From the NCBI RefSeq assembly GCF_002021815.1, contig NZ_CP019952.1:1705001-1769000 (forward strand): a DNA stretch of 64,000 nt. Reading direction: 5' to 3'. A program made the translations under genes and the position numbers. The notes beneath the pieces were generated by a model, which saw only the letters and a program-made list of their open reading frames with translations, did no database searches and had not been told where the DNA came from. Below, piece by piece: positions 207 to 6,499 of the stretch (the stretch's first letter is position 1; every line of letters begins with the position of its first letter). The stretch is from Pseudomonas parafulva. GTDB taxonomy: Bacteria; Pseudomonadota; Gammaproteobacteria; Pseudomonadales; Pseudomonadaceae.

Positions 207-641
207 TTATGGCATTCGTGCCTCCAGTTCGAATTTCACCTCATTCAAGTTACCTTCGACCTTGTAATAGGCCGTATTGTGGAATTCGTAGATCTTATTT
301 AGGGTGCGTAGTTTTACGGATCGGCTCGTAATCTCGTAGACCGCACCCGTACTTCTCGTCACCAAAAAAGGAACTGAATCTTTGCTTCTTTGCAAGGCGG
401 CTTCATGACTGGGCTGGACCTCCATCACGAAGTGCCTGTACACGTGAGGGACTGTAGCGCCCCCACCACTGTACCGAACTTCATAGATGGCGCCGTTCTC
501 TCCGACACGGGACACGGAAATGATTTCATCGGGATCTGGCAAAGTACGGTTGGATGCATAAATGTAGATCATCTGGCCTAGGCAGAGCAGTGTTAATAAC
601 CAGAGGCAAATCCTAGTGTTCTTTGGACTTGGCATAATCAA
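207..641 (-). CDS. small membrane-anchored protein, putative immunity protein for the upstream toxin
   Basis: This 144-residue protein has a short basic N-terminus followed by one hydrophobic segment (about residues 10-28), so it is probably a single-pass inner-membrane protein with its remaining 115 residues in the periplasm. No family is recognised. It lies directly downstream of the toxin-like gene and overlaps it by about 29 bases, which implies translational coupling. ATG codons at 641 and 635 are both possible starts. A toxin gene followed by a tightly coupled small gene is the usual layout of a polymorphic toxin and its immunity protein. A periplasmic immunity domain would suggest that the toxin acts in the cell envelope or is neutralised there. 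The immunity role is inferred from position only. Confidence 0.55.
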   Translation of the reverse strand: MIMPSPKNTRICLWLLTLLCLGQMIYIYASNRTLPDPDEIISVSRVGENGAIYEVRYSGGGATVPHVYRHFVMEVQPSHEAALQRSKDSVPFLVTRSTGAVYEITSRSVKLRTLNKIYEFHNTAYYKVEGNLNEVKFELEARMP

Positions 642-1626
642 TACCTGCTTTAATCCATGCTTGATCTACTGGATCGTCACCGTATGGCGCCTCTGCCCAC
701 CAAGCGTCGAAATCCGCTTGCGATGTGCCTGAAACCAACTGTGCAGCCCCTGCAGCTCTTAAGAGGACGGCTTCGGATATCCCGCTTGCAGTACCTGTAG
801 CACCATAATTGAAATTTCCAAAGCTTTCAAACTGCGAGCCCAGCTGCTTGTAATCCCACTCACCACGATTACGCACTTTCTTATAAAACCAGCTCAGTAG
901 AAAAGCGGTACCACCATTCTTGAAGTGCTCTTTTTGAGCTTTGGATTCTTCGAGGTTCTGGTCAAGTGATACACCTGGGGGTGGAGAAGGATACTGATTC
1001 AGACGAATCTGTTCCATTGCCGCGCTTAGTGCTTCCGCTGCGCGGATATTTTGTGTGCTTTCGATAGCTAAAAGGGTTTCTACACGCGCTCGTAGACGTT
1101 GTGCCATTTCAGTGTAAATTTGAAAAAGTTTAACAGCTTGTAAACTGTCCGCCCAGTCCGCTAGGCGCTTTTGGTCGACTACCACCTTGTAGCCTTTGGC
1201 GCGTACAAAGCTGGAGGGTTTGGCACTGGCCGGATCAAAGCCGTGATTGCTGGCGAAACGCAGTGCAATGGCGTTTTTTTCAGTGGCGGTTGATTCTTTG
1301 GCCATGTAGAGTTTGATTAATACATTTTTCTCGTTCCTGACAATATTGATGGGTGTTAATATGTCGATGGTCGTGTTTAGTCCGCCTGCCTCCAAGATGT
1401 CAGCATCTAGTTCGGCATCCAATGCGTTTAAGTTTTCATCATGTTGCTGATTAATTTCATTTTCTTTCTGTGTCATCCAGTCTTGGACATATTCGTTAGC
1501 GCGAATCAACCAGTCCAATGTGTCCTGTGCTTGGGGGTCAAGAGGTTCCACAACTGGACGGACAGTGAGTGGCGAAAAATCGGGACGACGATCAGTAATG
1601 ACCGTGGCAGGTAGCTCTCTTGGCAT
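613..1626 (-). CDS. polymorphic toxin / bacteriocin-like protein with toxin-44-type C-terminus
   Basis: The 337-residue protein has three parts. The first 30 residues are Pro-rich and probably disordered, with no signal peptide. A long helical, charged region follows (about 35-210), including an Asp/Glu/Asn-rich stretch near 50-75. The C-terminal region (about 225-337) carries WFYKKVRNRGEWDYKQ and FGNFNYGATG, which I recognise from memory as typical of the 'bacterial toxin 44' family. This organisation resembles S-type pyocin-like or polymorphic toxins that carry a killing domain at the end. The biochemical activity of the family is not asserted here. A putative immunity gene overlaps its 3' end. 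The sequence is visibly AT-richer than the aminotransferase fusion next door, consistent with horizontal acquisition. The delivery route cannot be read from the window. Confidence 0.6.
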   Translation of the reverse strand: MPRELPATVITDRRPDFSPLTVRPVVEPLDPQAQDTLDWLIRANEYVQDWMTQKENEINQQHDENLNALDAELDADILEAGGLNTTIDILTPINIVRNEKNVLIKLYMAKESTATEKNAIALRFASNHGFDPASAKPSSFVRAKGYKVVVDQKRLADWADSLQAVKLFQIYTEMAQRLRARVETLLAIESTQNIRAAEALSAAMEQIRLNQYPSPPPGVSLDQNLEESKAQKEHFKNGGTAFLLSWFYKKVRNRGEWDYKQLGSQFESFGNFNYGATGTASGISEAVLLRAAGAAQLVSGTSQADFDAWWAEAPYGDDPVDQAWIKAGIDYAKSKEH

Positions 1627-2060: not shown

Positions 2061-4988
2061 TCACACGCCCTGCGAAAGCACCCGATCAATACAGTCCACA
2101 AAATAATCCACACTCGCCCGCGTGGTGCACATCGGCGGTTTGATCTTCAGGATGTTCAGGTAATCGCCCGTCGGCTGCATGAAAATCCCCAGCTCGCGCA
2201 GACGGTTACACAGCACCATGGTTTCCTCGGTCGCAGGTTCCAGCGTATCCCGGTCTCGCACCAGTTCCAGCCCCAGATAAAAGCCCGAACCATGCGCCGC
2301 ACCCGCCAAGGGATGCTTGTCGACCAGCGCTTGAAGGCGGGCCTTGAAATAGCGCCCCGTCTCGCGGGCGTTGTCCCACAGGCCCTCCTGCTGCAACACA
2401 TCCAGTACCGCCATGCCAATGCGGCAACTGACCGGGCTACCGCCGGCAGAGGAAAAGAAGTAACCCTCAGCCTCCAGCGCCTCGGCGATTTCGCGACGCG
2501 TGATTACCACCCCCAGCGGCTGGCCATTGCCCATGCCCTTGGCCATGGTGATGATATCCGGCACCACGCCTTGCTCCTCGAAACCCCAGAAATGTTCCCC
2601 TAGACGGCCATAGCCCACCTGCACTTCGTCGGCGATGCATACCCCGCCGCGTGCGCGCACCTTGGCATAGGCCGCTTGCAGGTAGCCCGGCGGCAAGGCA
2701 ATGCCGCCGGCATTGCCATACACAGGTTCGCAGATGATTCCAGCCAGCTGGCGCCTGCTCGCATCGAGTTCGGCCAGCCGGTTATCGACGTCGCGCAGGT
2801 AGTCAGCGGCGCTGTCCGGGCCTCGGAAACGGCCGCGGAACGTGTTTGGGGCTTCGACCGGGTGCACCCAGGCGGGGCGGGTTTCCAGGGCCTGCGGGTT
2901 GTCGGCAATGGACGTGGAGATCGCATCGGTCGCCACTGACCAGCCATGGTAGGCCTCCAGTACGCTGAGCATGTCGCGTCCACCGCTGTAGGCCCATGCC
3001 AGGCGGATTGCCAGGTCATTGGCTTCAGTACCGCTGTTGACCATGAAAACGCGGTCGAATCCGTCGGGCGCCAGGGCCAGCAGGCGTTCGGAGAATTCGG
3101 TGACGGCGGCGTAGTGAAAGCGCGAATTGGTGTTGAGCAGCGACCATTGCCGTGCCGACTCGGCCGCCATGCGCGGATGACCATGCCCGAGTACGGCCAC
3201 GTTGTTGAGCATGTCTAGGTAAGAGCGACCTTGCAGATCGATCAGGTAGTTGCGCCAGCCGCGCTCGATCTGGGGTGGATCTAGGTAATAATGCTTCTGC
3301 GACCGGGCAAAACTGGCCCCGCGTCTAGCCAGTAACGCGTGAGGGTCTGGCAGGGCGTCTGCGTTGCAGTCCAACCTCAGTAAGCCCGCAGGAGAAGGGC
3401 ACAGGGCCAGCCATGCTGGCGCGCGGGAGGGCGCGGCGAAGAACGGCGGTTCGAGGCTGCTGTCCAGGCATAGCTGGACGCTGAGCCTCTCCCCGCTGTT
3501 GCCCAAGGCATCGCCCTTTCGCAACCATTGCCCATCGGCGGGGGCCTGTGCCAAACCAGTGAGCCACAGGTCCCATGAGGAGCTGCGCAAGTACCCGCTC
3601 TGTTCATCTACAGACCGCCACGTGCCGTCCTGCGGCGCCTGCACGGCCGTGCCAGGCTCCAGTTTCAGCTCCACCCCCAATGCGCAGGTTGCCGGTTCTT
3701 CGCTACGATCGATGTGTGTCTGGGACAAGCGATACTGCCCATGCAACGTGCATGCTGGTGCTGACTGGGCTGCCAGCAGGCGCTGGTCGAAACCTGGCAC
3801 CTCCCAATTGCCGGCATCGCAGTGCACGCTCAGCACCCCCAAATCGAGGCGGGCGACCGGGTGGCCAGCCACGGTAGGTAGCAGCGGTGCGCAATCAACG
3901 AAGCAGGGGGCCGAAGGCGCCGAACCAGCTGCCTGTAAAATGGCGACTTCCATCAGTGCCAACGGTGCGGCCTGCGCAGTCTCGAAAATCTGCCATTCAT
4001 GGGCGGCGTTATCGCGAATGTACTGGTTACCGGGGTCGATGGCCTGCTGTTGAGCACTGCTGAGCACCAACACGATTGCACGGTTGACCACCAAGGGCCA
4101 CAACGCGCGTAGTTCTGCCTCGGTCAGCGGATTGACCGCCTGATAGGCACTGACGGCGGCAAGCACTCTGAAAGGGTCACCGTCGGCATGATGCAGCAGC
4201 GCTGCGCAGGTCACCGACAGATCGGCAACGCGCCAGGTGCGAACCAGGTCGCCGAAATCGATGAGCCCCTGCAGTTGCCACTGGCGCTGCGCATCTTGAG
4301 CCCAGACGGTGTTGTCATCGGTGATGTCCAGGTGCACGGCCTGGATGGGCAACTGCTTCATCAGAGGGGAAAGGCGGATGGCAGCGGCTCGTGCTGCCTC
4401 GCTCAGCCGTCCGCGTAGCCTTGGGTCTTCCACCTGTGCCAGCAGGCGGTCAATCAATGCCGGGGCGTGCCTGGGGTCCCATTGCAGCGTGCGTGCCAGA
4501 CCTTCGTGGTCGAAATCTGCAAGGGCCCTGTCGACCTGCGCGCAAAGGGTGCCCATCGCCTGAATCACAGGGGCTGGAAGCCACCCGCATCGGGTCAAGG
4601 GCTGTCCTTGCAAGTATTCCAAGACCCGGACCCTCAGCGCTTGCCCTTCGATATCCAGTGTCAGCAGGGTGTTGCCAGTCTTTGCGGCAACCACCGAAGG
4701 CACTGGCAAGCCCTGGTCACGCAGCACACCCAGCGCAGCATGCTGAGCGTGCAGCTCGGGCTCGGCGTAGCTGGCGTGGCACGCCTTGAGCACGAACTTG
4801 CCCTGGCCAGTATCCATAAGCACATTCAGATCCTGTTGACTGCCAAGCGGCTGTAGTTCGCCGCAGAGGCCGTAATGCTCCGAGAGCAGTTCACGTGCCT
4901 GGGAGAGTGCTAGGCAGGGCGCTGGCAGGCTCACACGTTCTGTGATCTGGCGAAGGACGGTGGCGGCATCATGAAGACGTGTAGGCAT
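2061..4988 (-). CDS. APH-type kinase / degenerate M23 / class III aminotransferase (phospholyase-like) fusion
   Basis: This is a 975-residue three-domain protein. Residues 1-350 form an APH/choline-kinase-type phosphotransferase with catalytic HLDITDDN (His219, Asp221, Asn226) and a DFG at 244-246. Residues 410-520 resemble an M23 peptidase fold (GTAVQAPQDGTW, GDALGNSG), but the expected His/Asp metal ligands and the HxH motif are missing. Residues 560-975 are a fold-type I class III aminotransferase with the PLP lysine at Lys817 (TMAKGMGNGQPLG). In animals, hydroxylysine kinase and the PLP enzymes AGXT2L1/AGXT2L2 (phosphoethanolamine and 5-phosphohydroxylysine phospholyases) work in sequence, and bacterial fusions helped link them. 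By analogy this protein may phosphorylate an amino alcohol or hydroxy-amino acid and then eliminate phosphate and ammonia. The substrate is unknown. It is a single-gene unit with no obvious partner. Confidence 0.9.
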   Translation of the reverse strand: MPTRLHDAATVLRQITERVSLPAPCLALSQARELLSEHYGLCGELQPLGSQQDLNVLMDTGQGKFVLKACHASYAEPELHAQHAALGVLRDQGLPVPSVVAAKTGNTLLTLDIEGQALRVRVLEYLQGQPLTRCGWLPAPVIQAMGTLCAQVDRALADFDHEGLARTLQWDPRHAPALIDRLLAQVEDPRLRGRLSEAARAAAIRLSPLMKQLPIQAVHLDITDDNTVWAQDAQRQWQLQGLIDFGDLVRTWRVADLSVTCAALLHHADGDPFRVLAAVSAYQAVNPLTEAELRALWPLVVNRAIVLVLSSAQQQAIDPGNQYIRDNAAHEWQIFETAQAAPLALMEVAILQAAGSAPSAPCFVDCAPLLPTVAGHPVARLDLGVLSVHCDAGNWEVPGFDQRLLAAQSAPACTLHGQYRLSQTHIDRSEEPATCALGVELKLEPGTAVQAPQDGTWRSVDEQSGYLRSSSWDLWLTGLAQAPADGQWLRKGDALGNSGERLSVQLCLDSSLEPPFFAAPSRAPAWLALCPSPAGLLRLDCNADALPDPHALLARRGASFARSQKHYYLDPPQIERGWRNYLIDLQGRSYLDMLNNVAVLGHGHPRMAAESARQWSLLNTNSRFHYAAVTEFSERLLALAPDGFDRVFMVNSGTEANDLAIRLAWAYSGGRDMLSVLEAYHGWSVATDAISTSIADNPQALETRPAWVHPVEAPNTFRGRFRGPDSAADYLRDVDNRLAELDASRRQLAGIICEPVYGNAGGIALPPGYLQAAYAKVRARGGVCIADEVQVGYGRLGEHFWGFEEQGVVPDIITMAKGMGNGQPLGVVITRREIAEALEAEGYFFSSAGGSPVSCRIGMAVLDVLQQEGLWDNARETGRYFKARLQALVDKHPLAGAAHGSGFYLGLELVRDRDTLEPATEETMVLCNRLRELGIFMQPTGDYLNILKIKPPMCTTRASVDYFVDCIDRVLSQGV

Positions 4989-5386: not shown

Positions 5387-6499
5387 ATGTTCAATCGGCA
5401 ACTCAAAGCTACCTTGGCCGCCCGCGAAACCGAACTGGCTACGCTTCGCCAGCGCCTGGACGTTTTGGAAAACGGCGCATTCTTGCGCCTTGATGCACAA
5501 CGTCGCGCTCTCGAATGCAGCCCGGCGTTCGCCACTGCCTTGGGCGTTTCGCCCGAAGCGGTGGTAGGGCAGCCACTCGGGAACTGGCTGGCCGCTCCTG
5601 CGCAAGAAAGCCAGGCGCTGCTGGAGGCCCTGTTGCGCTCCAGCGCCATCATCCAGTTCGACCTTGAGGGCAAGGTGCTGGCCGCCAACCCCAACTTCCT
5701 GACGGCGTTGGGTTACCGCCTGGACGACGTGGTGGGGCAGCATCACCGCATGTTCTGCAGCCCTGATGAGGTCAAGGGCGAGGCATACAGCAACTTTTGG
5801 CGCACCCTCAACGCAGGTCGCTATGTGACCGGGCGTTTCAAACGCCTGGACCGCCACGGGCATGAGGTCTGGCTCGAGGCCAGCTACAACCCGGTCAGCG
5901 ATGCCAGCGGCAAGCTGGTGAGGGTGGTCAAGTTCGCTTCCTTGGTGACCGACCAGGTGCAGCGTGAAGAGGCCGTCAAGCAAGCGGCGCAGGTGGCGCT
6001 GGAAGTGTCGCTGCAAACCGATGGCAGCGCCAGCGAAGGGGTCGTGGTCATGCAGGAAGTGGGGCAGTCCATGCAGGGGGTCGCGCGTCAACTGCAGTCG
6101 GCCGGTGACACCATCAGCGCGCTCGGCCAGCAATCGACGGTGATCAGTGCCATCGTCCAGACCATTGGCGCCATTGCATCGCAAACCAACTTGTTGGCGC
6201 TCAACGCAGCCATCGAGGCGGCGCGGGCGGGTGATCAGGGGCGCGGCTTCGCCGTGGTGGCAGACGAGGTGCGCAAACTGGCCGGACGTACCAGCGCGGC
6301 CACGGCGGAAATCGATGCGGTGGTGGCACGTAACCAAGCGTTGGTGACCCAGGCCGTGGGCGAAGTGCAAAGCAGCCGTGCCGAAGCGGCTAACGGCCTG
6401 CAGCTGGCTGACCATGCAGGGCATGTAATCAGCAGTATTCAGGAAGGCGCCAAGCGCGTGGTCGGCGCTGTCGAGCGGGTCAGCAAGGACCTGCGTTAG
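5387..6499 (+). CDS. soluble PAS-domain chemotaxis transducer, BdlA-like
   Basis: The 370-residue protein has no transmembrane segment. It begins with a short coiled coil (about 5-30), then a first, poorly conserved PAS-like segment (35-85), a clear PAS/PAC domain (about 90-200, with [16 protein letters not shown] and the PAC-like [12 protein letters not shown]), and an MCP signalling domain (210-370). The conserved hairpin tip is present ([17 protein letters not shown], then [15 protein letters not shown]). This architecture matches BdlA of P. aeruginosa, a cytoplasmic transducer needed for biofilm dispersion and c-di-GMP-linked signalling. It is somewhat shorter than the roughly 417-residue BdlA, so equivalence is inferred. 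It is transcribed alone, and ATG 5387 follows an AGGTGA ribosome-binding site. Confidence 0.8.

Follow-up and report, generated by a model that had tools for sequence, protein, structure and literature searches.

What does a single polypeptide do in which a LytM/M23-fold domain that lacks zinc ligands sits between an APH-fold kinase and a class III PLP domain? This question is raised by one gene in the window, that is, the whole 64,000-nucleotide stretch of Pseudomonas parafulva DNA that was analysed. The best overall explanation, with a probability of roughly 0.55, is a bifunctional catabolic kinase-phospholyase that acts likeliest on 5-hydroxylysine and carries a metal-free former LytM domain. 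The gene and its parts are as follows.

2061-4988, minus strand: whole gene for the kinase, LytM-like and PLP phospholyase fusion; 975 aa, ATG start, stop codon included.
3969-4988, minus strand: APH-fold kinase, residues 1-340, with H219, D221, N226 and D244-F245-G246; assigned by Pfam APH, motifs and the kinase tree.
3354-3908, minus strand: LytM/M23-fold domain without zinc ligands, residues 361-545, with conserved R420, P452 and W526.
2064-3347, minus strand: class III PLP domain of the phospholyase subfamily, residues 548-975, with K817 and the subfamily residues N595, N596, N619, R623, F845 and K948.

The full-length protein matches NCBIfam PRK06149 (NF004800) with 1547.7 bits, above the curated cut-off of 973, and it was matched in 115 of 149 sampled Pseudomonas genomes (E <= 1e-150). 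Among these 115, the match covers only residues 13-770 in one genome (G034) and consists of two pieces with one TGA inside in another (G076). Therefore, the fusion is neither a chance ORF nor an assembly artefact. It is single-copy in the genome of the window; 11 further matches there are confined to the PLP part (28-36% identity). Its neighbours in the window are yejABEF and a divergent gene (5387-6499, plus strand) for a 370-aa PAS and MCP-signalling protein. Downstream, a gene at 613-1626 (minus strand) encodes a protein with a C-terminal Ntox44 (bacterial toxin 44) domain by Pfam. A small ORF at 207-641 (minus strand), which overlaps this gene and has no Pfam match, could be its immunity protein, although this is a guess.

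Pfam assigned APH to residues 45-274 (96 bits) and Aminotran_3 to residues 573-971 (212 bits). At E values up to 0.01, nothing was matched between these two domains, M23 included. The earlier note had described both enzyme domains as intact, and this holds. The kinase carries the HxDxxxxN and DFG-type motifs of the APH fold, and all of the named residues are present and correctly numbered: HLDITDDN starts at residue 219, IDFGD at 243 and the catalytic-lysine motif MAKGMGNG, with the PLP lysine K817, at 815. VLKA starts at residue 66.

By sequence, the best PDB matches of the PLP domain were human ETNPPL (6tor, 331 bits) and the Arthrobacter aurescens phospholyase A1RDF1 (5g4i, 249 bits), both above DGD (190 bits). 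The first two were also top-ranked in a Foldseek search with the full-length structure model (pLDDT 85.4, poor at residues 567-602). In a quick tree of 65 rows, from which eight near-duplicates or second class III genes had been removed beforehand, the PLP domains of the fusions form one clade with ETNPPL and 5g4i (SH-aLRT 100). Seven other class III proteins of the genome of the window, one at another locus (L026) and DGD fall outside it. N595, N596, R623, F845 and K948 are present in 56 of 56 rows of the clade and in none of the nine others; this signature comes from our own alignment, in which two rows are named phospholyases. The PLP part thus belongs with the phospholyases, apart from the transaminases; a grouping with ordinary transaminases, which would have spoken against the earlier reading, was looked for and is absent. 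ETNPPL and A1RDF1 share the clade and the subfamily residues with the fusion, but their chains (499 and 446 aa) are too short to hold a kinase and a LytM domain as well.

Three groups are seen within the clade. Group I (clade I), to which the protein of the window belongs, contains PRK06149 proteins of Pseudomonas, rhizobia and actinobacteria. Group II contains PRK06148 proteins, fusions without M23 and ETNPPL, and group III contains lyases mostly with a separate kinase gene, plus 5g4i. The split between groups II and III is supported, whereas their joining is weak (84).

The kinase domain was treated in the same manner. A PDB search with it found homoserine kinase at an E value of 1.4e-4. In a midpoint-rooted tree of 57 rows (six near-duplicates or second class III genes removed beforehand), the clade I kinases are on one side (SH-aLRT 100), and the kinases of groups II and III are on the other. 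The kinase and PLP trees agree, giving the same three groups, and group III loci encode the kinase separately, in a gene adjoining that of the lyase. This agreement and the recurrent adjacency are good evidence that the kinase and phospholyase parts would work in one pathway. The succession of kinase and phospholyase proposed in the earlier note gains support from these findings in relatives, and also from the hydroxylysine-type loci of the sister clade described below. In mammals, hydroxylysine kinase (HYKK) and 5-phosphohydroxylysine phospholyase (PHYKPL) are two separate proteins, and such a pairing of a kinase with a PLP lyase is known in principle. Their two-step logic, as described, is like that proposed for the fusion. 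Veiga-da-Cunha et al. in 2012 are said to have used bacterial fusions of the kinase-lyase kind. A 2025 review states that gene fusions can reveal function though both partners are uncharacterised, and cites Veiga-da-Cunha et al. 2012 among its fusion references (PMC12138971). Adjoining separate kinase-like and lyase genes are also found in a Pseudomonas genome without the fusion at the cut-off used (L110 8142-10608, genome G135).

Since a kinase and a phosphate-eliminating PLP domain are joined, this one polypeptide is probably able to degrade hydroxylysine or a comparable hydroxy-amine, and we regard a kinase-phospholyase reaction as quite likely. The N-terminal kinase would use ATP to phosphorylate a 1-amino-2-hydroxy compound at its hydroxyl group. 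Next, the C-terminal PLP domain would bind the terminal amine and eliminate phosphate and ammonia, which would leave an aldehyde. Elimination of phosphate with release of ammonia is the chemistry named for ETNPPL and a close relative in an earlier publication (PMC8154272). With 5-hydroxylysine as the likeliest substrate, the product would be allysine/piperideine-6-carboxylate (P6C). AmaB (P6C dehydrogenase) and later HglS, encoded elsewhere in the genome, could take it onward. Fusing both enzymes would hold the phosphorylated intermediate near its consumer. That hydroxylysine is the main substrate is put forward tentatively, at slightly less than even odds.

Loci of the sister group speak for hydroxylysine. 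In Thalassotalea loyana (L077; L116 is the same genome and contig), a 782-aa fusion without M23 is flanked by the genes for a beta-galactosidase and an L-piperideine-6-carboxylate dehydrogenase. The latter scored 824 bits against a cut-off of 730; the beta-galactosidase is 74% identical to a Pfam-identified GH2 protein of another locus (L076), and galT and galK are nearby. At L076, saccharopine dehydrogenase-type and AlaDh/PNT-type genes lie near the fusion, and we read these as the two halves of a saccharopine pathway enzyme. A search with the L077 protein found 202 loci, of which 80 were kept; these are not independent, because they are related and were picked by likeness to L077. Gene calls, here as at the Pseudomonas and other clade I loci, followed a longest-ORF heuristic, and most neighbours were labelled by BLAST to one anchor. 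By these calls, 57 of the loci have a fusion without M23. Within their flanks, a beta-galactosidase is found in 33, a P6C dehydrogenase in 14 and saccharopine-type genes in 22; one of the last two is found in 34 of 57, and any of the three in 42. Where the genes are separate or partial (15 loci), a P6C dehydrogenase is present in 5. By our criteria, none of the three kinds of gene was found at the seven M23-bearing fusions among the 80 loci. At another locus (L071), a P6C dehydrogenase (789.5 bits, cut-off 730) is encoded some 7 kb from an M23-bearing PRK06148 fusion.

Allysine is the product of phosphohydroxylysine phospholyase, and galactose sits on collagen hydroxylysine, galactosyl-hydroxylysine being a collagen modification. 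Hydroxylysine would therefore be a coherent substrate for the group without M23, and the marine loci point to hydroxylysine or its galactosyl form. The arrangement of L077 (7172-14377) recurs in its marine relatives (L117-L168), often with added gal, saccharopine-type, NhaC-like or GntR genes, and is a candidate galactosyl-hydroxylysine catabolic locus. In Thalassotalea sp. 42_200_T64 (L147), the beta-galactosidase, the fusion and the P6C dehydrogenase are each split over several ORFs, for which sequencing errors may be the cause. In S. meliloti Ak57, pSymB (L089 8983-16165) holds a PRK06149-type and a PRK06148-type fusion close together, with hut genes and an Lrp/AsnC regulator.

For clade I itself, the evidence on the substrate is thin. 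No P6C-dehydrogenase-like gene at least 55% identical to that of L077 was seen at the clade I loci examined. Across the genomes, P6C dehydrogenase is found in 115 of 115 with the fusion and in 14 of 34 others. This co-occurrence is not specific for a hydroxylysine link, as AmaA shows the same pattern (115/115 and 13/34); it seems to be that of the AmaAB lysine pathway as a whole and may reflect ancestry. The comparison genes gave weaker differences (hutH 113/115 and 26/34, BADH 112/115 and 29/34). Since the genome of the window holds AmaA, AmaB and HglS together, allysine could be used. Of 148 loci scanned, 9 have an Lrp/AsnC-like gene next to that for the PLP domain, and annotations place such genes by the fusions of S. 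meliloti and Rhodococcus. These neighbours weakly favour an amino acid as the clade I substrate. Friede and Henderson reportedly dealt in 1976 with 5-hydroxylysine in P. fluorescens. P. taiwanensis was inferred to metabolise 3-hydroxylysine but not 4-hydroxylysine, in a source whose accessible text names no gene for this (PMC12930750).

The substrate of the same chemistry might instead be ethanolamine or another small amino alcohol such as 1-amino-2-propanol, and the product would then be acetaldehyde or propanal. The nearest solved relatives are an ethanolamine-phosphate phospho-lyase (6tor) and the Arthrobacter phospholyase (5g4i), and older Pseudomonas biochemistry reportedly describes such a route; our literature search for an ethanolamine or amino-alcohol route in Pseudomonas found no paper. 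But ETNPPL belongs to group II, as the hydroxylysine-type loci do, and lies outside group I, and thus nearness to it fails to fix the substrate. As the Lrp/AsnC neighbours also lean weakly toward an amino acid, this alternative seems unlikely.

A hydroxylated polyamine, for instance 2-hydroxyputrescine, which would be converted to 4-aminobutanal, is somewhat more doubtful. The usual Pseudomonas neighbours of the fusion are dTDP-rhamnose genes and agmatine deiminase, the latter in the fetched flank of 13 of 20 loci, and an aguB-like gene is near it in four. Downstream of the Pararhizobium fusion, its strand carries genes for an amidohydrolase, an ABC transporter and a histone-deacetylase-family protein, and aguB; glutamine-synthetase-family genes adjoin two PRK06148 fusions. 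However, aguBA and the rhamnose genes may be bystanders, as the locus of the window is without them, and the glutamine-synthetase-like gene scored 238 bits, far under the cut-off of 650 for gamma-glutamylputrescine synthetase. The name aminotransferase, used by NCBIfam and by several source records, would imply a plain transaminase joined to a kinase that has nothing to do with it. This is very improbable, because the tree, the subfamily residues and the structure all place the PLP part with phospholyases, and because the kinase and the lyase are found together repeatedly, in one protein or in adjoining genes, and their trees match.

To return to the kinase-phospholyase with a metal-free LytM domain, its middle region takes the M23/LytM fold in the structure model, as structure comparisons also indicate. 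The five positions at which M23 peptidases have H, D, H, H and H as zinc ligands and catalytic His are A436, E440, L479, R501 and S503 in the protein of the window, so that none of the five is kept. The loss of the zinc ligands had been recognised in the earlier note; a metal site with ligands elsewhere in the modelled region was also looked for and not found. Among 165 clade I rows, none of the five residues is kept in 147, one in 16 and two in 2. These rows are weighted toward Pseudomonas: 120 are hits P0001-P0120, and those of them listed with a name come almost entirely from this genus. For the alignment, 54 of 218 hits were dropped for low coverage, and P0298 and 11 PRK06148 rows were added by hand and counted apart. 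In the latter the site is intact in 11 of 11. The M23 domain is thus intact in one sister group (PRK06148) and absent in another, and its site is lost across the PRK06149 clade. The middle domain is very probably no zinc peptidase.

In spite of this loss, all but one of the 165 clade I rows carry R420, as do all 11 sister rows. The median dN/dS value was 0.198 for the middle domain, 0.239 for the kinase and 0.064 for the PLP domain (91 pairs, some repeated because L048 duplicates L011 and L049 duplicates L017; of 29 Pseudomonas loci, 5 were dropped for a missing search motif). The conserved arginine and the steady selection suggest that the domain still has a function, which may be structural, regulatory or in binding; a binding or tethering module had been suggested in the earlier note. 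The domain would then be an old LytM peptidase domain whose metal site was lost early in the clade and which was kept as a metal-free module. EnvC, which acts on the cell envelope, offers a comparison. According to a PDB title, its LytM domain can act as an activator; unlike that of EnvC, the LytM domain of the fusion sits between two metabolic enzyme domains.

It is conceivable, though we think it improbable, that the ancestral enzyme catalysed three steps: release of an amino-alcohol residue by an intact LytM peptidase domain, its phosphorylation by the kinase and elimination of the phosphate by the PLP domain. PRK06148 would still work in this way, and PRK06149 would have lost the hydrolase step but kept the domain, with its near-invariant R420, for substrate binding or regulation without a metal. 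If this is true, hydroxylysine bound in a peptide or in some other conjugate is one example of what the ancestral peptidase could have freed.

PRK06149 is an equivalog family named "aminotransferase", a name that gives no kinase, LytM or lyase function. PRK06148 (NF004799, "hypothetical protein") has the same order of kinase, M23 and PLP domains, but differs in its intact M23 residues and in its separate group in both trees. In a literature search, no paper was recognised as an experiment on the PRK06149 family, and neither family name occurs in the papers listed. We know of no enzymatic activity for any PRK06149 protein. The database name of PRK06149 is misleading: the gene in these 115 Pseudomonas genomes very probably encodes a kinase-phospholyase. 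The odd part is the metal-free LytM domain retained in PRK06149 beside the intact one in PRK06148; to our knowledge, there is no explanation for an intact LytM domain inside a metabolic enzyme together with a dead but selected copy in its relative. The marine loci with beta-galactosidase, fusion and P6C dehydrogenase suggest a galactosyl-hydroxylysine route, and the PRK06149 fusion would be a testable gene for bacterial breakdown of amino alcohols or hydroxylysine.
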